Shown: positions 8,624 through 28,330 of the stretch, piece by piece
How positions within the stretch are numbered: the stretch's first letter is position 1
Layout: every line of letters starts with the position of its first letter
Assembly: GCA_018624035.1 (NCBI GenBank)
Contig: JAAZUU010000004.1
Coordinates: forward strand, 1 to 44,833
Reading direction: 5' to 3'
Length of the DNA stretch: 44,833 nt
Source: Rhodobiaceae bacterium
Lineage (GTDB): Bacteria > Pseudomonadota > Alphaproteobacteria > Puniceispirillales > Puniceispirillaceae
The notes under the pieces: model-generated
The model's database searches: none
What the model saw: the letters and a program-made list of their open reading frames with translations, nothing else
Told to the model about the DNA's origin: nothing
Position numbers and translations under genes: made by a program

Positions 8624-9781
8624 TCAGGCAGACTTTCTCATCAGCTGCTTCATGTGGTCAGGTCGCAGTAGCGTGGAAGGATAGACCAGATCATTGGCCA
8701 GCTGGGAGGCGAAAAAATTCTCCAGCTTTTTCAGGCTGTTCTCTTCACCATGTAGAAGCTCAAGCGTGTATTTGATGCCGTTGGTCACGACATTTCGAAT
8801 GATTGATGCAGTTTCCTTGTCATTGACATGATCGGCGAGGGTAAGAAGCACCTGCCAATTATCGATGAAGGCAACCACCTCGGCATCGCCCTGTCCGGCC
8901 TTATGGTCAAAGAGCGCGCTGATTTGTCTTTGGTAGTGTAGCAACTCAGTCCAGATGCTCTTTTGCCCAAAGCGGAAGAAATGCATGTCCCAGCTGTTGT
9001 CGGCTTCGAGAATATGCGCCAACTCCACTAGCTCACCGGCAATCAGGAACATCTGCTTGGACTCAGAAATATCGCTGTTGGCATCAAAGGTCTTCACGCG
9101 GTCCTGGGCGACGAGCTTGGAGTCGATCAGCAGGCCATTCGCCTCCGCCAGCGCAAGATAGAGCAGCTGGCATTGTGTGAACGGGGTCATGCGAATGTCG
9201 CCGTCTCGCGCCTGCGCGGCCATCTCGCCAAGATGTTTGCCAAAGGCGAGGCGGAAGACATCGGCGGCCAGCACCAGCGATGAGGGTGAGCCAAGAATCT
9301 CGAAATACCCATGTGACTCGCACAGGCTGCGGACGCTGGCCATCTGTGTGTAGCCGGTGTCATTGGATTTCGGCGCGATGCAGGCATGCACAAAGCGCAC
9401 ATCCCGGTGCGCTGGCATGCCAAGCTGGGTGGTCAACTGCTCGAGGCTGAATTTGGAATAGAGACTGGCGTCGTCGGCCAATGTCCAGACCCAGTCGACA
9501 TCCTCCGGCATTGCATTCGACAGCGCCGTCAGCATGGATGCGTGGCGTGCCTGTGGATGCGCATCCTTTAGCGACATCGGGATCAGCATGACTGACATAT
9601 CATGCCCGTCGAGAACTTTGCCAATCCATTCCTCGGTCAGCTTGGCGTTGTCATGCGCGATAATAATCTTTTTGTGGATGCCTTCGCCGACCTCCTGGGC
9701 GGCAACTGTTTCCAGAGTATGCGCGGCCTTGTCGAGGTCATCCCCGGCAAGAAGGGCAAAGGCGAATGTCGTGCTGCTCAT
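8624..9781 (-). CDS. Hypothetical protein with GT-A-like N-terminal region; candidate flagellar/surface modification enzyme
   Basis: 385 aa; DVDWVWTLADDASLYSKFSLEQL is reminiscent of GT-A folds with an acidic motif; sigma54-type promoter upstream; co-located with TPR-glycosyltransferase and flagellin. Confidence 0.65.
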   Translation of the reverse strand: MSSTTFAFALLAGDDLDKAAHTLETVAAQEVGEGIHKKIIIAHDNAKLTEEWIGKVLDGHDMSVMLIPMSLKDAHPQARHASMLTALSNAMPEDVDWVWTLADDASLYSKFSLEQLTTQLGMPAHRDVRFVHACIAPKSNDTGYTQMASVRSLCESHGYFEILGSPSSLVLAADVFRLAFGKHLGEMAAQARDGDIRMTPFTQCQLLYLALAEANGLLIDSKLVAQDRVKTFDANSDISESKQMFLIAGELVELAHILEADNSWDMHFFRFGQKSIWTELLHYQRQISALFDHKAGQGDAEVVAFIDNWQVLLTLADHVNDKETASIIRNVVTNGIKYTLELLHGEENSLKKLENFFASQLANDLVYPSTLLRPDHMKQLMRKSA

Positions 9782-9894: not shown

Positions 9895-9910
9895 TGGCAT
9901 GAAAATTGCT
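9895..9910 (+). promoter_or_regulatory. Putative sigma54 promoter for the TPR-glycosyltransferase gene
   Basis: TGGCATGAAAATTGCT: GG-N10-GC, 47 nt before ATG at 9957. Confidence 0.88.
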
Positions 9911-9956
9911 GTTTTCTTCGGACATAACCCCTATTGCGATCTGGCAGGGAACGAAG

Positions 9957-11978
9957 ATGAACGAAATGACCGGCAATGGTATGGCTGTCGAAGAGGCAAC
10001 AGGCGGCACCGCCGCCCGCGCGCGTCTTCAATCCATCATCGCGATGCAGATGGATGGCAGAGTTCAGGAGGCGCATGACGCCTATGTCAGCTATTTTGAG
10101 CAGCATGAAATCGACTATCCAGCACTGAACATGTTCGGGATCTGCTGCATGGCGCTCGGCCGGTTTGACAAGGCCAGCGGCCTGTTCGAGCACATTGTGC
10201 AGAATGCACCGATGATCGACGAGGCAGCTCTCTATCTTGCGGAATGTCATATTGAGCTGTCCGATGCTGATGCCGCGCTTGCTGTTCTTCAACCGGTTTG
10301 CAAAGGCGCAGCCGATGATCACAAGCCGCATCTTCTTGCGGCTCGCGCGCATATCCTGAAAGACAACAAGGCGGCAGCCATCGACTGTTTGGAGACGGCG
10401 GGAAGACTTGCATCAGAGGCCACCGATATTCTGCTGCTGTTGGCGACGCTTCATTTGGCGTGTCACAATACCGAGGCAGCGCTGGAGATCTATGGCCGCA
10501 TTCTTTTTGATGATCCGCAGAATATCGATGCGCTTCTCGGTCAGAGTGATGCTCTGATTGAAGATGGTTGTTGGGAGGAGATTCTGGTAAATTCGGATCT
10601 TGTGCTTGAGCAACAACCTGAGCATCAACGGGCCCGTTATTTACATTGTTCAGCTCTTTCGAAATTGAAAAAATTTGATCTGATGCTGATTTCTGCAAAA
10701 GCCATGGCCCTAACGGCTCCTGAAAGCCCGCTAACTTTGGAAAAATTGGCGGAAGCATACCTCGAGACTGGTGACAACCATTCGGCTTTGCTGTGTGCAA
10801 AAAACCTTCTCGAACAACAGCCACGATCGGGATTCGCCCACAAGGTGGCTGCGTCAGCCTTCTTTCGCCTTGGGAAATATAAAGATGCCCTCGAGTCTAA
10901 CTCGACCTTGTTAAGGTACTTTCCAAATGACATCCAAGCGATGGAAAACTTAGCTGTAGTCTTAGACCGTTTGAACCGAACGGACGAAGCTTTGGAGGCT
11001 TTTGATCGAGTTCTTGCGAAGTGCCCAGACAGGAAATCTGCCAAATTCAACAAATCGATCAGTTTGTTATTGAAAGGAGAACTGAAAGAAGGCCTCCGGC
11101 TATATGAGAACCGATTCGATCCAACAAAGGACATGGTTCCATTTTACCTCGGTGATGAACCGATTTGGGATGGCAGGGAGGCTATCGAAAGTAAGCACCT
11201 CCTGATACATCCAGAACAAGGTCTTGGTGACACGCTTATGTGCTGTCGCTTTATCAAACACCTTGAAGATTGCAATGCGAACCTCACATTCGCTGTGCAA
11301 CCAGCGCTAGCAAGCGTTATGGAAACTCTAGAAAGCAGCGCAGAAATCATCAAAGTGGGAGAGGATATCAATCACATCGATCTACATGTTCCCCTAATGA
11401 GTCTGGCTCACCTGACCTATGAAAAATGGGCTCACGGTTCGGTTGCTGACGCCTACCTAGATGTTCCAAAAGATGTTCAAAGTATCTGGATGGATAGATT
11501 AGGAAAAAAAAGTAAATTTCGTGTGGGATTTGCATGTAGTGGTAATCCAAAGCATTCCAATGACGCCGGTCGCAGCATTAATATGAGAACCTTTTTGGAT
11601 TCGCTGCCACAGGGCCCAGAATATCATTTGTTGCAAAAGGATCTTCGTGACACTGACTTGGCGGCGCTTAGGCGTTATTCAGAAGTCATCCGCCACGATC
11701 GTGAAATTTCAGATTTCGCTGATACTGCAGCGCTTTGCTCAAACATGGACCTTATAGTCAGCGTGGACACTAGTATCGCTCACCTCGCAGGCGCCCTAGG
11801 CAAGCGGACATTTTTGATGCTGGCCTGGTGGCCAGATTGGCGCTGGGGACTAAAGCGTCACTCAAACCTTTGGTATTCCAACATGGTATCTCTTCGGCAG
11901 CAGACAGCTGGTGACTGGAGTCATCTTCTTAGTCAGCTGAATATCAAAATCCGAGATGAGATGGGGAAGACCCTTTAA
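9957..11978 (+). CDS. TPR-repeat protein with C-terminal glycosyltransferase-like domain
   Basis: Repeated TPR-like units (ALNMFGICCMALGRFDKASGLFEHIVQNAP, AMENLAVVLDRLNRTDEALEAFDRVLAKCPDR), then LLIHPEQGLGDTLMCCRFIKHLE...DLIVSVDTSIAHLAGALGKRTFLMLAWWPDWRWG typical of TPR-GT proteins. ORF-track start at 9906 lies inside the promoter; ATG 9957 preferred. Confidence 0.82.
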   Translation: MNEMTGNGMAVEEATGGTAARARLQSIIAMQMDGRVQEAHDAYVSYFEQHEIDYPALNMFGICCMALGRFDKASGLFEHIVQNAPMIDEAALYLAECHIELSDADAALAVLQPVCKGAADDHKPHLLAARAHILKDNKAAAIDCLETAGRLASEATDILLLLATLHLACHNTEAALEIYGRILFDDPQNIDALLGQSDALIEDGCWEEILVNSDLVLEQQPEHQRARYLHCSALSKLKKFDLMLISAKAMALTAPESPLTLEKLAEAYLETGDNHSALLCAKNLLEQQPRSGFAHKVAASAFFRLGKYKDALESNSTLLRYFPNDIQAMENLAVVLDRLNRTDEALEAFDRVLAKCPDRKSAKFNKSISLLLKGELKEGLRLYENRFDPTKDMVPFYLGDEPIWDGREAIESKHLLIHPEQGLGDTLMCCRFIKHLEDCNANLTFAVQPALASVMETLESSAEIIKVGEDINHIDLHVPLMSLAHLTYEKWAHGSVADAYLDVPKDVQSIWMDRLGKKSKFRVGFACSGNPKHSNDAGRSINMRTFLDSLPQGPEYHLLQKDLRDTDLAALRRYSEVIRHDREISDFADTAALCSNMDLIVSVDTSIAHLAGALGKRTFLMLAWWPDWRWGLKRHSNLWYSNMVSLRQQTAGDWSHLLSQLNIKIRDEMGKTL

Positions 11979-15410: not shown

Positions 15411-17216
15411 ATGTGGTTCGGCGCACTGCAATCAGGCTGGGCCCATAGCGGGGTGACGTACTATCTCCGAAGAAGGGAGCGGTTAGGGGGTTTGGCTGAT
15501 CACGCCGAAATCAGCGACACGACACGTCGCGCAAAGGTAATCCAGCTGTTGGCCGGTATGGCGGTCGGGCTCGGCTTTGGGCTGGTCATGTCACTTGTCT
15601 CGAACGGGTTTGTAGCCGGGGTGATCTGGCTGACATCACTTCGTGAGTCAGAAATGGCTGCCTGGTTCGGTCTTGACCCTGCCGTTGCAGGTTTCCTACC
15701 GCTGATCTGCCTGTTGGTGGCAGCATTCCTGATCCTCCAGGTTCGCAGATTGTTTGGAATCACCCGGTGGCATGGGCCAGCTGACAGTATTTTTGCCGCG
15801 CATCGCACCGACAATGAACTTGACGTGAAGGCTGGGTTCGGGTCAACGCTGGCAGCCTTGATCTCGGCAGGTGGTGGCGCATCGGTGGGACAGTATGGCC
15901 CGCTGGTGCATTTCGGGGCCACCATGGGGAGTGCGTTCCGCACAATGACAGGCGGCTTGCTGACAACCGATGTATTCATTGGCTGCGGTGTTGCCGGTGC
16001 AATTGCTGCTGGTTTTAACGCGCCGATCGCTGGGGTGGTGTTCGCACATGAGGCTATTCTGCGACATTTCTCGATGCGTGCCATCGCTCCGATTGCGGTT
16101 GCCAGCATCAGCTCCTCTTGGTTCTCACAGCAGATTTTTGGATCTGCCCCGCTGCTGGATTTTGCGGGCATGGCTCTTGATCTGGCAGTTGTGCTGCCGG
16201 CTGCCCTAGTGCTAGGACCAGTGTTCGGGCTGGTTGCCGTGCTGTTCATGGTTTGCATACGTGGCACCCTCCGATTTGCCGCGGGAAGTGGCTGGTCCCC
16301 AACGCGTCTTGTCTTTCTGGCTGCGGGCATTACTGGGTTGGTTGGCATATTTGTTCCTGAGGTGCTTGGCCTTGGCAGTGGCCCTCTTCGCATTATGCTT
16401 GAAGGGGGATACGCCGAGGCGTATCTGCCTGTGCTGTTTGCTGGAAAGCTGCTGCTGACCGCGCTTTGCATCGGGTTCGGCCTTTTTGGTGGCGTGTTTT
16501 CGCCGGCTCTGTTTGTGGGTGCTGCTGCTGGGGCGATTTGTGGCAGAATTGCGACAAATTTGATCGGTGTCGCGGTCGCGCCGGCACTTGCCATATGCGG
16601 CATGGCGGCTGTGGCAAGCGCAGTGATCGGGGCGCCGGTCGCCGGCGTCATTATCATCCTTGAAATGACTATGAATTATGAGCTTGCATTGGCCGCCATG
16701 CTGAGCGTCGTGACATGCAGCATGATCAGCCATCTGCTGTTCGGCCATTCGTTTTTTGATCGCCAACTTCTTGATCGGGGGGTCGATGTCTCGCAGGGAC
16801 GTGGCCATATCGAAATGATGGAAACGCCAGTTCTTGGTATCGTCAGTGACGTTTTTGTCCGCATGGATACTTCTGCAACGCCTGAGGGCGCGGTGAAAGA
16901 GCTTGTCGCGGCGAATCAGTCGGAAGGCTATCTGGTCACTGACGGAAACAGGCTTGTTGGTAAGGTTGCCCTTACGCGGCTTGTTTCTCTGAAAAAGGAC
17001 GCCTCGCTGAAATCTTGTGCGGATTCTGATCCGCTTTCGATCAAGCATGATGCATCGCTGCAACAGGCCATGGAGGTGGCGAGCGGCTTTGTCGGCGAAA
17101 GCATTCCAGTGGTTGACCGCGAGACGGGGCACTTATACGGGGTTGTGACTGAAGCCGATCTGTTTCAACTCTATCTTTCGCTGCAGACGCGCATCACTGA
17201 TCTTGAACGTGCCTAG
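15411..17216 (+). CDS. ClC-family chloride channel/transporter with C-terminal CBS-like domains
   Basis: 601 aa, multi-TM; GGGASVGQYGPLVHFGATMG, FGGVFSPALFVGAAAGAICG, GAPVAGVIIILEMTMNYELALAAML motifs; C-terminal CBS-like region. Confidence 0.9.
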   Translation: MWFGALQSGWAHSGVTYYLRRRERLGGLADHAEISDTTRRAKVIQLLAGMAVGLGFGLVMSLVSNGFVAGVIWLTSLRESEMAAWFGLDPAVAGFLPLICLLVAAFLILQVRRLFGITRWHGPADSIFAAHRTDNELDVKAGFGSTLAALISAGGGASVGQYGPLVHFGATMGSAFRTMTGGLLTTDVFIGCGVAGAIAAGFNAPIAGVVFAHEAILRHFSMRAIAPIAVASISSSWFSQQIFGSAPLLDFAGMALDLAVVLPAALVLGPVFGLVAVLFMVCIRGTLRFAAGSGWSPTRLVFLAAGITGLVGIFVPEVLGLGSGPLRIMLEGGYAEAYLPVLFAGKLLLTALCIGFGLFGGVFSPALFVGAAAGAICGRIATNLIGVAVAPALAICGMAAVASAVIGAPVAGVIIILEMTMNYELALAAMLSVVTCSMISHLLFGHSFFDRQLLDRGVDVSQGRGHIEMMETPVLGIVSDVFVRMDTSATPEGAVKELVAANQSEGYLVTDGNRLVGKVALTRLVSLKKDASLKSCADSDPLSIKHDASLQQAMEVASGFVGESIPVVDRETGHLYGVVTEADLFQLYLSLQTRITDLERA

Positions 17217-18105: not shown

Positions 18106-19104
18106 TCAGTCGTTGTTTGCCAGATGGAAATCGACAGTCTCTTCAAGCGCCCTGTTGAAGTTGACTTTTGCTACGTTGGGGAAGTGTGATTTAAGGCGAT
18201 TGGTGTCTATAGCGTATCGCCTGTCATGTCCTTTCCGATCACTGACAAACTCGAAGATATCCTCGAACGCCTTTGCTTGATCAGGGCGGCGTTGGTTAAA
18301 AATCTTATGAATGCGCGCCACCAGGTCAAGGTTGGTCAATTCCATGTCGCCGCCGATCAGATAGCTCTGGCCGGGGCTTCCAGCCGCCATAATGGCCTCC
18401 AGATAGGCAACATGCGTATCAACAAATAGCCAGTCGCGGATGTTCTTACCGGTGCCGTAGATCGGAATCTTGTGCTCTTTGGCAAGCGAATTGACGATGG
18501 TCGGAATCAATTTCTCGGCATTCTGCCCAGGGCCGAAATTGTTGGAACAGTTTGTCACCATGGCAGGAAAGCCAAAGGTCCGGTGCGAGGATTTTATGAT
18601 GAAATCCGAGGCAGCCTTGCTGGCTGAATAGGGTGAGCTCGGATGATAGCTGGAAGTTTCGGAAAAGGGTGGGTCCTCTGGCCCCAGATCCCCAAAGACC
18701 TCGTCAGTTGACACATGAAGGAAGCGGAAGTCATCCCTGCCGCCCTGTTCGATATGATTGCGGCAACCCTCCACCATGCTCAGGGTTCCCATGACGTTGG
18801 ACTCATAAAATGCGCGTGGGCCGGAAATAGAGCGATCGACATGGCTCTCCGCGGCAAGGTGATAGACCTGGTGAATGTTGTTGTCCCGAAGGATGGCAGA
18901 CACGAGATCCTGATTGTTGATATCATCGATATAAGTCTTGATGCGAGCCCGCCTGTCGGCAGGAACAAGCGTATCGAAATGGGTCACGCCAAGCGACAGA
19001 TTGTCGATATTGTGGATGAATACATCCGGGTTGCGTGACAGATGCTTCAGAAGCCTAACGCCGATGAAGCCAAGGCCGCCTGTTACAAGAATATGCCGCA
19101 TCAT
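18106..19104 (-). CDS. rmlB: dTDP-glucose 4,6-dehydratase RmlB
   Basis: ILVTGGLGFIGVRLLKHL...HLAAESHVDRSISGP...FLHVSTDEVFGDL...YSASKAASDF...TNCSNNFGPGQNAEKLIPTIV. Confidence 0.93.
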   Translation of the reverse strand: MMRHILVTGGLGFIGVRLLKHLSRNPDVFIHNIDNLSLGVTHFDTLVPADRRARIKTYIDDINNQDLVSAILRDNNIHQVYHLAAESHVDRSISGPRAFYESNVMGTLSMVEGCRNHIEQGGRDDFRFLHVSTDEVFGDLGPEDPPFSETSSYHPSSPYSASKAASDFIIKSSHRTFGFPAMVTNCSNNFGPGQNAEKLIPTIVNSLAKEHKIPIYGTGKNIRDWLFVDTHVAYLEAIMAAGSPGQSYLIGGDMELTNLDLVARIHKIFNQRRPDQAKAFEDIFEFVSDRKGHDRRYAIDTNRLKSHFPNVAKVNFNRALEETVDFHLANND

Positions 19105-19974
19105 TTACCTGCCATAGAGCCTGTCATGCCAGTCTTCCCATTTGCCGACAGATTTACCAAGACAGGATTGTAGGAGGTTGTTGGCCATCACCGAATTGGG
19201 AGGGCGTTTTGCTGCCTGCGGAAATTCACAAGAAGGAATGGCTTCGATCAGCGCAAGCTTGGTTGTGTTGTCGGTTTGTATCAGCTTATCGCGAATGTGG
19301 TTGGCGAACCCGAACCAGCTGGTTGCACCGTCTGGAACCGCGTGGATCAGTCGTGGAAGGTCGGTATTCCCCTGTCGATAAATATCGACAAGCCGAAGCG
19401 TTATTTCGGCCAGAAAGCCAGTAGTTGTCGGGACCCCCTTCTGATCATCGACGATGCGTAGTTGGGTACGCTCGCACATAAGCCGTTTCATCGTCAGGAA
19501 AAAATTATGCCCATCATTCGAATGCACCCAGGAAGTGCGAAGGCAAAACCCCTTTGCGTTGGATTTCAGAAACTGTGCTTCGCCTGCGGCCTTACTGCGA
19601 CCATAGACGGATAGTGGGGCGATTGGCGCATCTTCCAAATGGGGGTCTGTGGCGGTTCCGTCGAACACATAATCTGTCGAAAACTGCACCATCAACGCAT
19701 CATGCAAAGCCGCCCATCTCGCCATCTCGCCGACCGCATCGGCATTAACGCGCGTTGCCGTTGCCCCATCTTCCTCAGCGGCATCTACCGCGGTGTAGGC
19801 GGCACAATTGATAATTACTGACGGCTGTTCACGGTTCAGGCAGGCTGAAAGGCTGGCCGGACTGGAGAGGTCACACGCAGCTCGGTTCACAAAACTAACA
19901 TTGTCGCGCGACGTAATTTCCCGCTGGAATGCCATACCAAGCTGGCCGTTTGCACCGGTGACAAGCCAGGTCAT
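19105..19974 (-). CDS. rmlD: dTDP-4-dehydrorhamnose reductase RmlD
   Basis: MTWLVTGANGQLGMAFQ...VIINCAAYTAVDAAEEDG...FSTDYVFDGT...YGRSKAAGE. Confidence 0.92.
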   Translation of the reverse strand: MTWLVTGANGQLGMAFQREITSRDNVSFVNRAACDLSSPASLSACLNREQPSVIINCAAYTAVDAAEEDGATATRVNADAVGEMARWAALHDALMVQFSTDYVFDGTATDPHLEDAPIAPLSVYGRSKAAGEAQFLKSNAKGFCLRTSWVHSNDGHNFFLTMKRLMCERTQLRIVDDQKGVPTTTGFLAEITLRLVDIYRQGNTDLPRLIHAVPDGATSWFGFANHIRDKLIQTDNTTKLALIEAIPSCEFPQAAKRPPNSVMANNLLQSCLGKSVGKWEDWHDRLYGR

Positions 19975-20513
19975 GGATATGTCTCACAATCGCCGAACCT
20001 GGGTGCACTGGCATCACGGTCATTCAATGTTGGAGCCTCGATTGGCCACTCAATGCCAATCTCGGGACAGTTCCATCGCAGGAGCCTCTCGGCTGCCGGG
20101 TTGTAGATGTCTGAAGTCAAATAGGTGATCTCGGCAGTCTCGCTCAATACAAGAAAGCCATGTGCAAACCCCTCTGGCACCAGCAAACGTTGCCTGTTGT
20201 CAGCGGACAGGGTAAAGCCTTGCCATTGGCCGAAATTTGGTGATGAGCGCCGCAAATCTACAATTACATCATGTATTTCGCCAGCTGTTGCCCAGACCAG
20301 TTTCGCCTGAATATTCTCGATTTGGTAATGAAGACCGCGAAGGATGTGTTTTGTACTGCGGGAGTGATTGGTCTGCGCCACATTAAATTCATACCCAGTG
20401 GCATCTAAAATCCGTTTACAGTTGAACCCTTCATAGAAATTGCCGCGTTCGTCACCATGGATCACAGGATCAATGGTGAATGCATCCCGCAAAGTTGTTT
20501 CAGTGATGTTCAT
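19971..20513 (-). CDS. rmlC: dTDP-4-dehydrorhamnose 3,5-epimerase RmlC
   Basis: DERGNFYEGFNCKRI...FNVAQTNHSRSTKHILRGLHYQ...LVWATAGEIHDVIVDLRRSSPNFGQW...VPEGFAHGFLVLSE. Confidence 0.94.
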   Translation of the reverse strand: MNITETTLRDAFTIDPVIHGDERGNFYEGFNCKRILDATGYEFNVAQTNHSRSTKHILRGLHYQIENIQAKLVWATAGEIHDVIVDLRRSSPNFGQWQGFTLSADNRQRLLVPEGFAHGFLVLSETAEITYLTSDIYNPAAERLLRWNCPEIGIEWPIEAPTLNDRDASAPRFGDCETYP

Positions 20514-21372
20514 CGCATAAATATTTCAAATATCTTGAGTAGCTGCCATAACCCATACTGTTGGCTGCTTTTCTAACGTCAGCCTCGGTGACCCAGCCTT
20601 TTCCTAAGGCGATTTCTTCAAGACACGCAATTTTCGCGCCACTTCTTTCTTCAACGGCATAGACATATTGCGCGGCTTGCATCATTGATTTATGCGTTCC
20701 AGTATCGAGCCAGGTCAGTCCGCGCGGCAGGATCTCAAGGTTAAGTGACCCGTCATTTATATAGGCCTGAATGACTTCGGTGATCTCCAGCTCTCCGCGG
20801 GTAGATGGCTTGACACTCTTGGCGATTTCTACAACACGCCCATCAAAGAAATAGAGACCAACAATAGCAATGTCTGATTTTGGGTGCTCTGGTTTTTCTT
20901 CGAGTGACAGCACTTTGCCGTTATCGCCCACCTCGACAACACCATAGCGTGACGCATCCGCTACCCGGATGCCGAACACATGGGCGCCGGTGTCATGCCT
21001 GGCGGCGTTCATCAACAAACTGGAGAAGCCGCCGCCATGAAAGAGATTGTCACCAAGAACCAGCGCCACGCGGCCGCTATCAATGAAAGATTCGCCAATC
21101 AGGAAAGCCTCGGCAAGGCCACGCGGCGCTTCCTGGACGGCATAGCTGATGGCGCATCCGAAATGGCTGCCGTTACCAAGCAAATGCTCATATGAGGGCA
21201 CGTCATGCGGAGTCGAAATGACCAGAATGTCACGAATGCCGGCTAGCATCAGCGTCGAGATCGGATAATAGATCATTGGCTTGTCATAGATGGGGATTAG
21301 CTGCTTGCTTACACCCATGGTCACTGGATAGAGACGACTTCCAGAGCCACCAGCCAGGATAATGCCCTTCAT
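20500..21372 (-). CDS. rmlA: Glucose-1-phosphate thymidylyltransferase RmlA
   Basis: MKGIILAGGSGSRLYPVTMGVSKQLIPIYDKPMIYYPISTLMLAGIRDILVISTP. Confidence 0.96.
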   Translation of the reverse strand: MKGIILAGGSGSRLYPVTMGVSKQLIPIYDKPMIYYPISTLMLAGIRDILVISTPHDVPSYEHLLGNGSHFGCAISYAVQEAPRGLAEAFLIGESFIDSGRVALVLGDNLFHGGGFSSLLMNAARHDTGAHVFGIRVADASRYGVVEVGDNGKVLSLEEKPEHPKSDIAIVGLYFFDGRVVEIAKSVKPSTRGELEITEVIQAYINDGSLNLEILPRGLTWLDTGTHKSMMQAAQYVYAVEERSGAKIACLEEIALGKGWVTEADVRKAANSMGYGSYSRYLKYLCDEHH

Positions 21373-21612: not shown

Positions 21613-22722
21613 TTAAATATTTATCGAAACTTTGAACAGTTCCATTCGTGCTTGAATGGCAGTAATAAAGGCTTCAGCGGCGTTTCGCCATGAATAGTTT
21701 GAACGTATTGTTGATGCGGCTTCCATGGCCAATCTTTGAAAATGATTTCTGTTAGTGCGCATGTTAACGAGACAGGCGCTGATGTCGTCGGCCTCAGCTT
21801 TAGCCCATTCACCCTCACATCCGTCTGTACCCATCGGCACCATTTTATGATCAATGATGCCAACATAGTTTTGAACCGGCTCCAAGAACTCAGAGTGTCC
21901 ACTATAGCAAGTTGTGGCGACAGGCAAGCCAGACGCCATTGCCTCGATAAGGGGGAGCCCCCATCCCTCTGCACGGCTGGGAAACAGCAGCACGTCACAT
22001 GCATTATACAAGTGCGTCATGTCTTGGTCGGACATGACACCATTCAAGAATACGGCATTTTTGATGCCGGCCTCCGTAGCCATTTGTGAGAGCCGACTTA
22101 TATCCTTGTCATAAGAGTTGTTTGGAAGAGATTTCATCCAGAGATTGTCTGATTTAAGGATCAACTGGGCTGAATTGTCAGTGCCAAAGGCCTGCGCATA
22201 GCCTTCTAGCAACTCCGGAAACCCCTTGCGCTGTTCAAATTTACTGACGACGAGTACCCGGTACATGTCGTCATTTGCATTTTGATAGTTTTTACGTAGG
22301 TAGGGATGAAACCTGTCAGAATTAACACCTTCTGGAACTACATCAATTCGCTCAGCAGGCATGCCGTTGCTTATCAAGACGCCTTTGCCCCAAGCTGATG
22401 GAACGAGAATGAACTGTGCCTCGTTAAGCCATGCCAGATAATCAGATTGCAGAATAGTCGACTCAAAGATTGCCCAGTGGACATTTACCCCTGGTAGAGT
22501 TGGCCAATGGTTGTCTTGTATTGAATTGATGTCGAAAAAATGAACATTGACATCGTTGCCTCCAGCGCCAGCGATAAAGGCGTGGTAGTCGAAATCTTTG
22601 AAATAATCATACTCATTAATTGAGTCACCTATGAGGTTGAGGGATTTAAGCGCATCACAGAACTCTCCAAAATGACGACCGCTGCCAAGTGGATTGCGTT
22701 GTCCAAATAAATTAATTTGCAT
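21613..22722 (-). CDS. Group 1 (GT4-like) glycosyltransferase
   Basis: VVSKFEQRKGFPELLEGYA...LLFPSRAEGWGLPLIEAMASGLPVATTCYSGHSEFL. Confidence 0.9.
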   Translation of the reverse strand: MQINLFGQRNPLGSGRHFGEFCDALKSLNLIGDSINEYDYFKDFDYHAFIAGAGGNDVNVHFFDINSIQDNHWPTLPGVNVHWAIFESTILQSDYLAWLNEAQFILVPSAWGKGVLISNGMPAERIDVVPEGVNSDRFHPYLRKNYQNANDDMYRVLVVSKFEQRKGFPELLEGYAQAFGTDNSAQLILKSDNLWMKSLPNNSYDKDISRLSQMATEAGIKNAVFLNGVMSDQDMTHLYNACDVLLFPSRAEGWGLPLIEAMASGLPVATTCYSGHSEFLEPVQNYVGIIDHKMVPMGTDGCEGEWAKAEADDISACLVNMRTNRNHFQRLAMEAASTIRSNYSWRNAAEAFITAIQARMELFKVSINI

Positions 22723-23127: not shown

Positions 23128-23868
23128 TTACGCTTGTCCAAGTTTCAGTTTTGACAACTGGATGTTTACTTGTGACTTTATTTCGTTGAGTTGTGAATAC
23201 TCAGAATATAACGCTCCCATTTTTAGCTCGATTGCATGGAGGGTGCCTCTGCATTGGTTCAGTATTTTCAGTGCTTCCGTTTGTTCATCAGCAGACCCTA
23301 CTGAAAAGGTTGGCTTATTGTTAACAATGCTTGTGGTATACTCGGTGCCTTTGGACATCGGACGAATCCACCCCTCACCGTATAGGAACTCGCAGAGAGC
23401 CTTTTTGTTTGCGGGCATGTACAACTCAACATCCCAAAACATTTCCGGTTTTAGAGGAAAAACGAGTTCTACAGGAACGTGGAGTTCGTTGGCAGGAAGC
23501 GTCCACATTGCTGTAAAGTTCCACTTATCAACAATCACCTGACCATCAAGGCTTGTCTCGTAAAAATAGAAATCAACGATAGTCGTCGTCAAGCCAACTT
23601 TTCTCTTCGCTTGAAGGAAGTGATCAGTATGGTTGACCGCATCAGAGAAATCTATTTCAAACGGAGTGTTTTCCAGTAAACTAATAACTTCTGAGCGTTT
23701 TGATTTTGCAATCCAAAAGTCTACATCATCGTCTCCATCGATGGCAGAACCATTCCTTGTAAGTCCAAGGAGTGTTCCATAAAAAGGGATTGGTCGAACA
23801 GTTTTGAGTACTTTGGAAATGAGGATTATGTTCTCCTCATGTAGCCAAGCTTGAACTGCCTCTTTCAT
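23128..23868 (-). CDS. LicD-family-like phosphotransferase/nucleotidyltransferase-fold protein
   Basis: PFYGTLLGLTRNGSAIDGDDDVDFWI matches the LicD-type GTLLGxxRxGxxIxxDDDxD signature. Confidence 0.75.
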   Translation of the reverse strand: MKEAVQAWLHEENIILISKVLKTVRPIPFYGTLLGLTRNGSAIDGDDDVDFWIAKSKRSEVISLLENTPFEIDFSDAVNHTDHFLQAKRKVGLTTTIVDFYFYETSLDGQVIVDKWNFTAMWTLPANELHVPVELVFPLKPEMFWDVELYMPANKKALCEFLYGEGWIRPMSKGTEYTTSIVNNKPTFSVGSADEQTEALKILNQCRGTLHAIELKMGALYSEYSQLNEIKSQVNIQLSKLKLGQA

Positions 23869-24569
23869 TAAACTTTCTCCAGATATATTCGTGCGACGTG
23901 AGCGTCTTCTTCCTGGAACTTTGCTAGCCCAAAACCAACGTTCATATATTTTAGGCGAAGATTAGCGGGATTAATTTTTTGCACTAAATCGTAAGGGTCT
24001 ATGTAACGTCGAAAATGAGGAGGCGCCTTTTTGGGCAGCTGCGAGTCAATTTTGGTTCTAAATTCAGCACAAATCATGGATCCTGTTCCGATAGCGCTGC
24101 TCATCTGATCAAAGAAACGCTGTTCTGTTTGTTCATCCAGTGAATGAAGGAAAAAGCGTGCGTAAACTACACATCGTTCCAGCATATTCTCGTATTTCAT
24201 CAAACATTTTTCAGTCAGACTTGAAAAGTCGAGCTGGTGGGCTTGAACTGTGGTGAGTTTTCTGCGCCTACATTCCATGCTTACCTGTTCAATAGCTGCA
24301 CCTGAGCTGTCAATGGATAGAACATTCTTCCCGTGAGATGCAAAAAAGATGCTGTCCCGACCATTTCCACAGCCACAATCGATGAAATTGTCAAAATCCC
24401 ACATTTCTAACAGGGTCATCGCAGCAAACTGACTTGGTACAAAGGTAGCAAGATTGTTTCTGTAAAAGCCGTTCCAATAGGACTTTTCCGTCTGCGAATT
24501 GGACGGAGCATCACAAATGTCGTCACCATCTGAAACGTAATGGAATTCGTTCAAAGTTCGATCAATCAT
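23868..24569 (-). CDS. Class I SAM-dependent methyltransferase
   Basis: FIDCGCGNGRDSIFFASHGKNVLSIDSSGAAIEQ motif I/II; ATG 24569 has an SD-like GAGG upstream (ORF track starts at a TTG, 24620). Confidence 0.78.
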   Translation of the reverse strand: MIDRTLNEFHYVSDGDDICDAPSNSQTEKSYWNGFYRNNLATFVPSQFAAMTLLEMWDFDNFIDCGCGNGRDSIFFASHGKNVLSIDSSGAAIEQVSMECRRRKLTTVQAHQLDFSSLTEKCLMKYENMLERCVVYARFFLHSLDEQTEQRFFDQMSSAIGTGSMICAEFRTKIDSQLPKKAPPHFRRYIDPYDLVQKINPANLRLKYMNVGFGLAKFQEEDAHVARIYLEKV

Positions 24570-24693
24570 GTTTGCCTCGTGATTGCGAGATGTTCGGTTA
24601 ACAGCCGCGGTGTTGGTCAATTGCGCACTAGATTATCGCCATCTTATAAAGCTGGCTCTTTCTGGTGTTGATGCCGCCAGTGCCATGTTTTTG

Positions 24694-25767
24694 CTATTCA
24701 GCGATCAACGCTGGCGTTTCCAAGGAATGCGCCAGGTTGGCAAGAAATTCTGCGATATCTTCATAGGGCTTGTAGGACGGTTGTTTGACCGACTCCACAA
24801 GCGAGATACGGTTTTTCTCCTCAGCCAACTTGTCAGGATCCATAAGGGTCAGAATTTCATTCCTCAACTTTGCCTCAGGAACCTTGGTGACAAACTCATA
24901 GGGTACATTTGGCATTCTGGCAGGAATTTGGTCAGGGATTTTCCAGTCGGTAACAGCAATCGGCACCGCCCCTACCATTGCTGCCTCAACAAGTGTCGAA
25001 GACTCCTCAGAGACCAGAACATCACACAGAGCAAGGGCCTGAAAGATATCCAATTTAGGATCGAGGATCTCTACATTGTCCCATCTGCCTTCATGTAACA
25101 CGGCCATTTTGTTAACCTGCTCAAGATGCTGGTCGTAGGACTCCGAGTACCATTGCTTGATGTAAATTTTGATGTCGAGGTCGGCAATCGCCTTCAAAAA
25201 GCTGTCTTGACGACCGTCATGTTCCCAGGACGGTGCATATACAACTGAGAGACGCTCATCCTTGCGCTTGGACTCCATCAGTTGAAACTCATCGTAATCG
25301 AGCTTCGGCCATCCCAATACCTTCACCCCTTTCTTGGGGTAGAAGGGATGATCTGGCTGGATGCTGAAGATATTACCTCTAATCAAATCTTCGACAGCGA
25401 CTTCATCAACCAGCTTATTCATCAAAGTAACAACGGCATCAGAAATGAAACTGCCAGCGTACATTTCAGCCCAATGCTTGTTTGGCAAAATACCATAGTC
25501 AAAAGCGCCCCATGGCTCATAACGCCAGAAATTTGGCCATGCGGGGTGAGATTGGCTGAGATCATGGATCATACAAACGGATGTATGTGCAAGGCTGGGA
25601 TTGTTCATGGGCTGGTGTCCCAAGAACAGGCCGACCTGTGACTTGACTGACATTGTCAAATCAACCTTGGGGGCCATTCCGCGTCTTCCCAATGCGTCGA
25701 TGATCTTTTCACAGTGTCTATGATCCGAGCTGTCGGTCGGATAGATGCAAATCGGCCAATTGGACAT
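24694..25767 (-). CDS. CDP-glycerol glycerophosphotransferase-like (TagB/TagF-like) protein
   Basis: GVKVLGWPKLDYDEF...VVYAPSWEHDGRQDSFLKAI...LDIFQALALCDVLVSEESSTLVEAAMVGAVPIAV resembles TagB/TagF glycerophosphotransferase motifs. Confidence 0.7.
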   Translation of the reverse strand: MSNWPICIYPTDSSDHRHCEKIIDALGRRGMAPKVDLTMSVKSQVGLFLGHQPMNNPSLAHTSVCMIHDLSQSHPAWPNFWRYEPWGAFDYGILPNKHWAEMYAGSFISDAVVTLMNKLVDEVAVEDLIRGNIFSIQPDHPFYPKKGVKVLGWPKLDYDEFQLMESKRKDERLSVVYAPSWEHDGRQDSFLKAIADLDIKIYIKQWYSESYDQHLEQVNKMAVLHEGRWDNVEILDPKLDIFQALALCDVLVSEESSTLVEAAMVGAVPIAVTDWKIPDQIPARMPNVPYEFVTKVPEAKLRNEILTLMDPDKLAEEKNRISLVESVKQPSYKPYEDIAEFLANLAHSLETPALIAE

Positions 25768-25874
25768 GTTTCACTTCCTCAACAAGTCTGTTGTTTCCTA
25801 TTCGGCAAGCTTGCAGCCAGTCGCAATTCGGTCTGGCCGCCTTGGCTAGTCCGCAAGAATTCCAGTCGTGAATG

Positions 25875-25890
25875 AGCAATAATCATGCCA
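25875..25890 (-). promoter_or_regulatory. Putative sigma54 promoter for the TagB/F-like, methyltransferase and LicD-like genes
   Basis: Reverse strand TGGCATGATTATTGCT: full -24/-12 consensus. Confidence 0.87.
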
Positions 25891-26039
25891 GCGGTGTTGT
25901 TGACCCGGTTATCGCCGATGAATTGCGTCTGCCTCGAGTTTTGGATTGGTCGTAAAACACTGATCACTCTGTATAAAGTTCGCTGATGGAAAATGTGTTA
26001 CCAGTCCGATCAACGCGACTGAAGACAACATCTGAGGAT

Positions 26040-26055
26040 TGGCATGAATAGTGCA
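26040..26055 (+). promoter_or_regulatory. Putative sigma54 promoter for the cytidylyltransferase gene
   Basis: TGGCATGAATAGTGCA: GG-N10-GC; -12 is GTGCA. Confidence 0.7.
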
Positions 26056-26101
26056 GCAGTGTGGTGGTAACCAAATGCTCATATCAGGCGGGAGCAGTGA
26101 G

Positions 26102-26527
26102 ATGGAATTTGATGCATCCAGAAGATTGATGGTGGATATGTCTGCGACGATCATCCACCATGGTCATATCCGGTTGTTGGCCAAAGCAAATCAAATCGGC
26201 TCTGTGATTGTGGGGCTTGCGACAGATGATGAAGTCTTGAAATGGAAAGGCTACGTCCCGGAACTGGCTTTTGAGCACCGCAAGGAAATTCTGGCGAGTA
26301 TTCGGTATGTTTCGGATGTCGTCGCATCTCCATGGCTGATTGATGAAGCGCATTTAGACCGTCACAACATCGACTACCTTGTTCATGGAGATGATTGCGC
26401 AAATCCCATACCTAGGGAGCGGCAGTTGATTTTCGCTAGAACCGAGAATATTTCATCTTCAGTCATTCGTGACCGAACCCTCAAGCTTCGCCCGAATTCA
26501 GGCAGCAGGCTGCGATTTGCTGTGTGA
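26102..26527 (+). CDS. Cytidylyltransferase-like (TagD/glycerol-3-phosphate cytidylyltransferase-type) protein
   Basis: HHGHIRLLAKANQIG (HxGH motif), EHRKEILASIRYVSDVV, RTENISSSVIRDR (RTxxISSS motif). ORF-track start 26051 lies in the promoter. Confidence 0.8.
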   Translation: MEFDASRRLMVDMSATIIHHGHIRLLAKANQIGSVIVGLATDDEVLKWKGYVPELAFEHRKEILASIRYVSDVVASPWLIDEAHLDRHNIDYLVHGDDCANPIPRERQLIFARTENISSSVIRDRTLKLRPNSGSRLRFAV

Positions 26528-26557
26528 AAGATTGGGAAAACGGTGTTTCAATAAGCA

Positions 26558-27352
26558 GCGCTCTTGGTGGCGCAATTCCGTCACCTTGGCCGACTACAAA
26601 GGAATACGGTAAGCTTCATCGAAATGGTGCAACTCGATTTTGATCGAAACATTTTGATATCGACCAATCTCTAGGACAGCGAGAGTCTCAAAGTTTCGTC
26701 TGCCTGTGAAGTTTTTGTGCGAGACAATACAGGCTACGATTTCTATTCCTACCGGACCGGCATTCTGCCGTTGCTTGCAGAAAACTGCGCCTTTCAAATC
26801 ACCTTGATGAACACAAGCTTCATAATTCTGGAGCTAGAAAAACTGATCGGCAATTATGTCGAAGCCACGCGGCATTTTTTACCAAGCGACTTTTACCAAG
26901 CGACGTCTATGGGCTGACAATATCACAGGAGCATTTCCCTTATATCGAGAGCTTTCTGATGACCCTGTCAGCGTCGCTCTGAAGCCAAGAGCCATTCATC
27001 GGCTGGTGGCAGCAGATTGAAACGGTGAATGATCGGTAAGAGGTCATCAACAGATGTCAGATCGAGTTGAGCCTGTTTATGACTGCGAAGGGACTCTCGC
27101 TCTTATCCGCGTTTGACCATCCACCAGACGCACCCATTCTCAATCCGACCCATGGATTGGCCAGAGCGCTCTTCGACGCATTTGTTGTCGTTAAAATCGA
27201 AACATACAGGCAGAACCCGCATCAACTCGACTTGAGTTTCCTGCGGTATGACAATGTGAAGGCACGGCACGCCTTGCTGGAAAAGGCATGCGGATTTAGG
27301 CGATCTTTCCACCCGCCCTGCCTGATGAATGCCAGATGGCACTTGGCATAGA
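26558..27352 (+). pseudogene. Degraded rhamnan-synthesis-F-like (RgpF, PF05045-type) protein
   Basis: Conceptual read: FIEMVQLDFDRNILISTNL*DSESLKVSSACEVFVRDNTGYDFYSYRTGI...HFLPS[14-bp duplication]DVYGLTISQEHFPYIESFLMTLSASL*SQEPFIGWWQQIETVNDR*EVINRCQIELSLFMTAKGLSLLSAF...NPTHGLARALFDAFVVVKIETYRQNPHQLDLSFL; three in-frame stops plus a frameshift. Confidence 0.8.
26877..26904. repeat. Perfect 14-bp tandem duplication (TTTTACCAAGCGAC x2) causing the frameshift in the pseudogene
   Basis: 26877-26890 and 26891-26904 are identical; removing one copy restores HFLPSDVYGLTISQEHF. Confidence 0.9.
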
Positions 27353-27359
27353 AATTGCT
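27344..27359 (+). promoter_or_regulatory. Putative sigma54 promoter for the 27392-28330 gene
   Basis: TGGCATAGAAATTGCT: GG-N10-GC with TTGCT. Confidence 0.85.
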
Positions 27360-27391: not shown

Positions 27392-28330
27392 ATGATAGAC
27401 ACCAAAACCATCAGGCTTTTCCAGATATATTACGATGATGTTTCCTATGGATCCATCCAATCAGGTTTTGAGCCCCTTGATAATTGCGATGGTCCTAAGG
27501 AATTCCGTGAGATCGTGCCGATCTTCAAATATCTAAAGGAAAATGACTTTGATGACCATGAATGGCTGGGTTTCTTTTCTCCCAAGTTCGCAGACAAGAC
27601 AGGTCTTGGCGCGGAGGATGTTCTGGCAGAGGTGACAGGACTGGCGGACGATATCGATGCCTGTCTTTTTACGTCACAATGGTCTGAGATCGCATTTTTC
27701 CAGAACATCTGGGAGCATGGCGAATATTGCCACCCCGGTCTAACTGGACTGTGCCAGATGCTTGCGGACCGCGCTGGTTATAACATCGATCTCATGAAAT
27801 CTGTTTCCACTTTAAACAGTTCCGTATTCAGCCATTACATTGTGGCGAGGGGTAAGTTCTGGCGGGAGTGGCGCCGTATTGTTGAAATCTATCTCACGAT
27901 GATCAGTGAGAATGATGAATTGTTCATATTGGAAACGCTTCATGACGGTGTTGCATTAAGCATGCATCCCTTCATTGTCGAGCGCGTGCCATCGATGATT
28001 CTTCAGGATACCAAGTTCCGCGCAATCGCGTCTGACCGTGTGCTTTGTAGATCAAGCAATTTCATTAATCAAATGCTAAACCCTCACGCTCAGTGGGCAA
28101 GAGAACTGACAGACAGCATGTCAGAGCACCTTCTCTCAGCTGATCGAATGAAAATGGCTTATGCGGCCTCGGGTGAGAATAAGTATCTCGATGAGTATTG
28201 GCGGTTTCGCCTGTGGGCGCCGGCACGGTCGGGCCATATCAACCTGACGGAATGCGCATTGAGTTACATTCGTGAAAGATGCCATCACGCAACGATGAAC
28301 GGCATCGTTATGCGTGATGCGGCTGCCTAA
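27392..28330 (+). CDS. Conserved-hypothetical-type protein of polysaccharide clusters
   Basis: MIDTKTIRLFQIYYDDVSYGSIQSGFEPLDNCDGPKEFREIVPIFKYLKENDFDDHEWLGFFSPKFADKTGLGAEDV; ATG 27392 follows the sigma54 promoter. Confidence 0.75.
   Translation: MIDTKTIRLFQIYYDDVSYGSIQSGFEPLDNCDGPKEFREIVPIFKYLKENDFDDHEWLGFFSPKFADKTGLGAEDVLAEVTGLADDIDACLFTSQWSEIAFFQNIWEHGEYCHPGLTGLCQMLADRAGYNIDLMKSVSTLNSSVFSHYIVARGKFWREWRRIVEIYLTMISENDELFILETLHDGVALSMHPFIVERVPSMILQDTKFRAIASDRVLCRSSNFINQMLNPHAQWARELTDSMSEHLLSADRMKMAYAASGENKYLDEYWRFRLWAPARSGHINLTECALSYIRERCHHATMNGIVMRDAAA

Follow-up and report, generated by a model that had tools for sequence, protein, structure and literature searches.

A group of four genes in the flagellar locus of a marine SAR116 bacterium, encoding a LicD-like protein, a methyltransferase, a 'TagB/F-like' protein (P3) and a cytidylyltransferase (CyT), appears from sequence comparison to serve the decoration of a flagellin glycan with 2-aminoethylphosphonate (AEP) or a close analogue, a reading to which we assign a probability of roughly 0.55; the flagellum probably bears a small phosphonate-type group rather than glycerol phosphate. 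The evidence consists of homology, gene neighbourhoods and promoter matches, from which we infer every substrate, the acceptor and the sequence of reactions. In the proposed mechanism, the module belongs to an island for flagellin glycosylation in which CyT would use CTP to load CMP onto a small phosphonate or phospho-amine acid, AEP being the likeliest, to yield CMP-AEP, and P3 would then move the aminoethylphosphonyl group onto a flagellin-glycan hydroxyl. The acceptor sugar would perhaps be rhamnose, made by the adjacent rmlABCD genes and placed by local glycosyltransferases, and the methyltransferase may methylate either the phospho group or the sugar. Sigma54, together with local NtrC-family activators, would turn the module genes on together with the flagellum.

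The window, by which we mean the whole stretch of 44,833 nucleotides that was analysed, holds a flagellar locus that extends from genes of the flgF/G/H/I/K/L type, by way of flagellin, fliD and fliS, to fliF-M, and the proteins encoded across it (FlgF/G/H/I/K/L-type, flagellin, FliD, FliS and FliF/G/H/I/K/M) bear out the flagellar context given in the first-pass annotation. Over 21-27 kb the GC content is 42-48%, against 55-60% in the flagellar core, a drop that fits an acquired island. The LicD-like, methyltransferase and P3 genes lie on the minus strand and CyT diverges from them on the plus strand, their positions and divergent orientation being as first stated. Alongside them, rmlB, rmlD, rmlC and rmlA (18106..21372, minus strand) would supply dTDP-rhamnose for a candidate glycan core, rmlB (TIGR01181, 335 bits) and rmlA (PF00483, 1.6e-69) being assigned by family match and rmlD and rmlC from their translations. 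Two glycosyltransferase genes are local: a GT4 enzyme (21613..22722, minus strand; PF00534, 2.1e-18) with a sigma54-like site (1 mismatch) 33 bp upstream, and a TPR and GT-B-like protein of 690 aa (9906..11978, plus strand) that is a candidate flagellin glycosyltransferase. Two uncharacterised proteins are probably also products of flagellar-island genes, namely orf8624 (8624-9781, minus strand), with an exact sigma54 site upstream, and orf27329 (27392..28330, plus strand), which has no family match and an exact sigma54 site of its own at 27344-27359. The stretch 26530-27350 holds no intact gene; its short frames resemble glycosyltransferase-type remnants (RDNTGYDFYSYRTGI), and a Pfam search of it returned no match. 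Between fliD and the glycan genes, 15411-17216 encodes a chloride channel of the ClC type that has a CBS domain.

The sigma54 promoters that had been proposed for this flagellar setting are borne out as sequence matches, with 15 sites in the window matching TGGCAYRNNNNTTGCW with at most one mismatch against 2.5 expected, an excess somewhat favoured by the fact that Y was substituted for C in the pattern after a first scan; the original pattern, which had C and was allowed two mismatches, found 35 sites against 18.6 expected, and none of 100 shuffles reached as high. Exact sites precede flgG, orf8624, the TPR-glycosyltransferase gene, P3, orf27329 and fliS, and sites with one mismatch precede CyT and the GT4, DUF5672 and fliD genes. 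The exact sequence match before P3, TGGCATGATTATTGCT (25875..25890, minus strand), lies 108 bp upstream of the gene, and the one-mismatch site before CyT, TGGCATGAATAGTGCA (26040..26055, plus strand), lies 47 bp before its likely start. The start called for the TPR and GT-B-like gene falls within the exact site at 9895-9910, and the true start therefore lies downstream.

CyT (26051..26527, plus strand) is a PF01467 cytidylyltransferase (1.2e-12) of an AEP-associated clade, for which ATG 26102 is a likelier start than 26051; the shorter form still includes MEFDASRRLMVDMSATIIHHGHI. It had initially been called a CDP-glycerol-type, TagD-like enzyme, an assignment that we reject on four grounds: its score of 56.6 bits against the TagD equivalog TIGR01518 is below the cut-off of 165.4, it branches outside TagD in the tree, its signature residues differ and its relatives sit beside genes of AEP biosynthesis or uptake. 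In the maximum-likelihood tree, the CyTs form one 62-row group (support 95/87) outside TagD, ethanolamine-phosphate cytidylyltransferase (PCYT2) and CCT, and within that group the window CyT sits on a long branch whose placement has weak support (80/79). The window enzyme keeps 42 of the 45 clade signature positions (DMSAT, HHGH, Y68, E71, H112, N118, RT..SS), the exceptions being T57A, G133N and N116C, the last of which breaks an HGxDNxN motif intact in 58 of 61 CyTs; the TagD-type residues Y29, M112, W116 and G118 (window numbering) are absent from it. Among relatives of solved structure, PCYT2, 5x3d and TagD score too closely to decide between them: PCYT2 ranks top by summed score, and among single-domain matches the best is 5x3d, the cytidylyltransferase domain of a phosphonate-pathway (PEP phosphomutase) protein.

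The neighbourhoods of CyT homologues point to AEP. A scan of 85,462 species yielded 61 loci, and among the 60 tallied for neighbours, 43 carry PepM, Ppd or an AEP transaminase, nine carry an AEP ABC importer and eight have neither synthesis nor importer genes; curated cut-offs are exceeded in example loci (PepM TIGR02320, 409 bits; phnS2 TIGR03261, 424.5 bits). The two closest relatives in the bacterium's own order (56% and 51% identity) are both in AEP clusters, where CyT is either adjoined by PepM, Ppd and a PhnW-type transaminase or fused to the transaminase.

P3 (24694..25767, minus strand, 357 aa) is proposed, from its sequence, to be a CMP-AEP:glycan phosphonotransferase. Its original designation as TagB/F-like holds for the family, in which nine of ten alignment rows match PF04464; the window protein is the remaining row, and a Pfam search with it alone gave no match, PF04464 included. 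A homologue in Methylophilus (locus L064) scores 29.6 bits against the PF04464 gathering threshold of 22.1, and profile comparison of the P3 family with PF04464 relatives gives 97.6% probability; by family membership of this kind P3 is probably a TagF-superfamily enzyme, the window copy being the most diverged. AlphaFold predictions for P3 and the LicD-like protein, each from a single sequence, reached a pLDDT of 33, too low to be of use.

The distribution of P3 is narrow. It was found in none of the other genomes searched in its order (136, own included) or class (387, own included) and in no plasmids, and among 299 Burkholderiales a full-length match occurred only in Methylophilus, the other two matches being to TPRs. 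Homologues are present in 12 Methylophilus/Methylotenera loci (32-36% identity, 168-189 bits), together with CyT homologues and AEP-synthesis genes, the link between P3 and CyT being partly conditioned because these P3 homologues were found via the CyT search; a contig search with P3 alone as query gave no match. In the Methylophilaceae fragments that are long enough, the gene order is PepM(CyT-fused)-Ppd-transaminase-CyT-methyltransferase-P3. The first-pass annotation would have counted homologues lying consistently in capsule or LPS loci away from flagella as a refutation; that is not the case for P3, since all 12 further homologues lie beside CyT in Methylophilaceae, nine of them on fragments that also carry flagellin or FliD, and two of the remaining three fragments are shorter than 5 kb. 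The fragments L064 and L053 hold genes for flagellin, FliD and FliS as well as the AEP-CyT-P3 cluster. Beside the L064 cluster, a protein of 2493 aa (L064:12615-20096) that combines TPRs and GT41 domains with a methyltransferase domain is a candidate flagellin glycosyltransferase.

We also propose, tentatively and at somewhat less than even odds, a dedicated flagellar phosphonate pathway in which a PF01467 enzyme makes CMP-AEP and a TagF-superfamily AEP transferase loads the flagellin glycan, with C-P synthesis encoded beside flagellin in Methylophilaceae and scavenged AEP used in the SAR116 bacterium. The CyT-P3 pair beside PepM and flagellin in culturable Methylophilus is a directly testable candidate for AEP activation and transfer; if the proposal is right, some aquatic bacteria would lock phosphorus into their flagella as phosphonate.

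The LicD-like protein (23128..23868, minus strand, 246 aa) carries the GTLLGLTRNGSAIDGDDDVD motif and is possibly a second (CDP-alcohol/CMP-phosphonate) phosphotransferase. Its earlier family call was upheld narrowly, at 24.3 bits against a PF04991 gathering threshold of 22.6 over residues 30-70 only (the GTLLG..DDDVD motif), and the match is marginal because a six-frame search of the genome with PF04991 did not list the gene. No further match to it was found in its class; LicD-family genes adjoin CyT in L027, L029, L040, L043 and L074. The methyltransferase gene (23868..24620, minus strand), which overlaps that of the LicD-like protein by one base, encodes a class I SAM methyltransferase, as first proposed (PF13847, 2.9e-9), of 250 aa by a TTG start, with an internal ATG start possible instead. 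It has no detectable homology to the methyltransferase in the same position in Methylophilus, and its relatives occur in mixed glycan or plasmid contexts that give no clue to its substrate.

The bacterium's own assembly, 95.6% complete, raises the question of where AEP would come from. Three PF13714 matches were found, none with the EDKxxxxxNS motif, leaving PepM undetected, and nothing scored above the cut-off for a phnS2-type importer; a 38.8-bit phnS2 match (L079/L095) was discarded, being far under the cut-off and part of what looks like a polyamine-type importer. PF12974 binding proteins are present, the best of them with no recognised PhnC/PhnE-type partner within the 3.5 kb examined. 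With neither PepM nor a clear AEP importer, the cell would need to import or salvage AEP, or else the substrate is phosphoethanolamine.

In the latter case, the flagellar decoration would draw on CDP-ethanolamine as donor, made from phosphoethanolamine that most cells have available and possibly N-methylated towards phosphocholine, with no phosphonate involved. Such a donor accounts for the missing PepM and importer and agrees with the summed-score rank of PCYT2, the adjacent methyltransferase gene and the fusion of a CyT to a CDP-alcohol phosphatidyltransferase in an alphaproteobacterium; we nonetheless consider it unlikely, since 52 of the 60 CyT neighbourhoods are of AEP synthesis or uptake and the best single-domain structural match is the phosphonate-pathway domain of 5x3d. 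Glycerophosphate, placed on flagellin or envelope from CDP-glycerol made by a TagD-type enzyme, is improbable. CyT and P3 do share the PF01467 and PF04464 superfamilies, the second named after CDP-glycerol, with the TagD and TagF of wall teichoic acid synthesis, CyT does match TIGR01518 weakly, and a Phaeobacter plasmid pairs an annotated TagD with a CDP-glycerol glycerophosphotransferase-family gene, but the shortfall against the TagD cut-off, the separate TagD branch and the missing TagD residues all weigh against it, and P3 is far diverged from TagF. Of the first idea of an alditol-phosphate or phospho-amine substituent, then, a CDP-activated phospho-substituent module tied to the flagellum survives, phospho-amine being its better half, and the glycerol phosphate or teichoic chemistry finds no support. 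It is quite improbable that the module acts on LPS or capsule and sits in the flagellar locus by coincidence: rmlABCD, LicD and GT4 genes are also frequent in O-antigen and capsule loci, but the exact sigma54 promoter upstream of P3 is of the type that also precedes FliS and FlgG, and P3 homologues sit beside flagellin or FliD in Methylophilaceae.

A phospho-amino-acid glycan with a CDP-threonine donor, of the kind made by Clostridioides difficile (type A) and Pseudomonas aeruginosa (b-type), is very improbable here, for all that it shares the logic of a cytidylyltransferase, a methyltransferase and a TagF-like protein near flagellin. The C. difficile type A cluster (CD0240-CD0244) encodes such a set, and AEP has been observed on GlcNAc of C. 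difficile flagellin by mass spectrometry, its origin unexplained in a genome without PepM (PMC10714395, PMC8861647), a puzzle common to the window module. It differs in its proposed CDP-threonine donor, in CD0242, modelled on GDP-mannose pyrophosphorylase whereas CyT is a PF01467 protein, in the ThrH-like CD0241 and in having no LicD in the cluster as described. Among the scanned window proteins there is neither a ThrH-like HAD enzyme nor a CD0242-type nucleotidyltransferase beside the TagF-like gene, the comparison with CD0241-0244 and PA1088-1091 being by description only. The P. aeruginosa b-type glycan (PA1088-PA1091) has, like the proposed window product, a deoxyhexose core with a methylated phospho-substituent, but that substituent contains N,N-dimethylthreonine, and glycosyltransferase and transferase are fused in PA1091 (PMC11833859). 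Flagellin glycans with methylated phospho-substituents are thus already known, as is AEP on the flagellin of C. difficile, and the initial remark that the module matched no established pathway was too strong.

The AEP reading has a counterpart in phosphonyl tailoring (Pnt), in which PntC activates AEP with a cytidylyl group for surface tailoring, as proposed for CyT, and 23.6% of PepM proteins carry a fused PF01467 domain; those PntC enzymes that have been characterised belong to PF12804 (LicC-like), and the available part of that account names no flagellar role or transferase (PMC6697681). That pathway is recognised by PepM in the genome, which was not found in the bacterium's own assembly. 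Phosphonate tailoring relies chiefly on nucleotidyl activation. For bacterial phosphonyl tailoring, what happens once AEP has been made has been described as enigmatic, and phosphonoglycoproteins have been proposed for SAR11 and Prochlorococcus. Among the open-access papers searched, which make a limited test of novelty, none was found to describe genes that couple the activation and transfer of AEP to the flagellum.

Beyond the Methylophilaceae, other PF04464 genes pair with CyT in gut Sutterellaceae and Mailhella (AEP-importer type), and in Campylobacterales CyT is paired with LicD and PF04464 genes. CyT lies near a 2-AEP ABC importer in L020, L025, L026, L028, L031, L032, L035, L045 and L046, mostly with a membrane PF04464-type transferase, in gut Mailhella, Parasutterella and Duodenibacillus and in Vibrio and Photobacterium; these loci look like surface decoration with scavenged AEP. 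The alphaproteobacterial fusion of CyT to a CDP-alcohol phosphatidyltransferase (L101:7971-9434) might allow a single protein to produce ethanolamine- or phosphono-lipids. A PepM-like protein from SAR116 (L010:10543-11829) has VVESKRFPKVNS in place of EDKxxxxxNS, and its gene adjoins a CyT-transaminase fusion, Ppd and a CDP-alcohol transferase.
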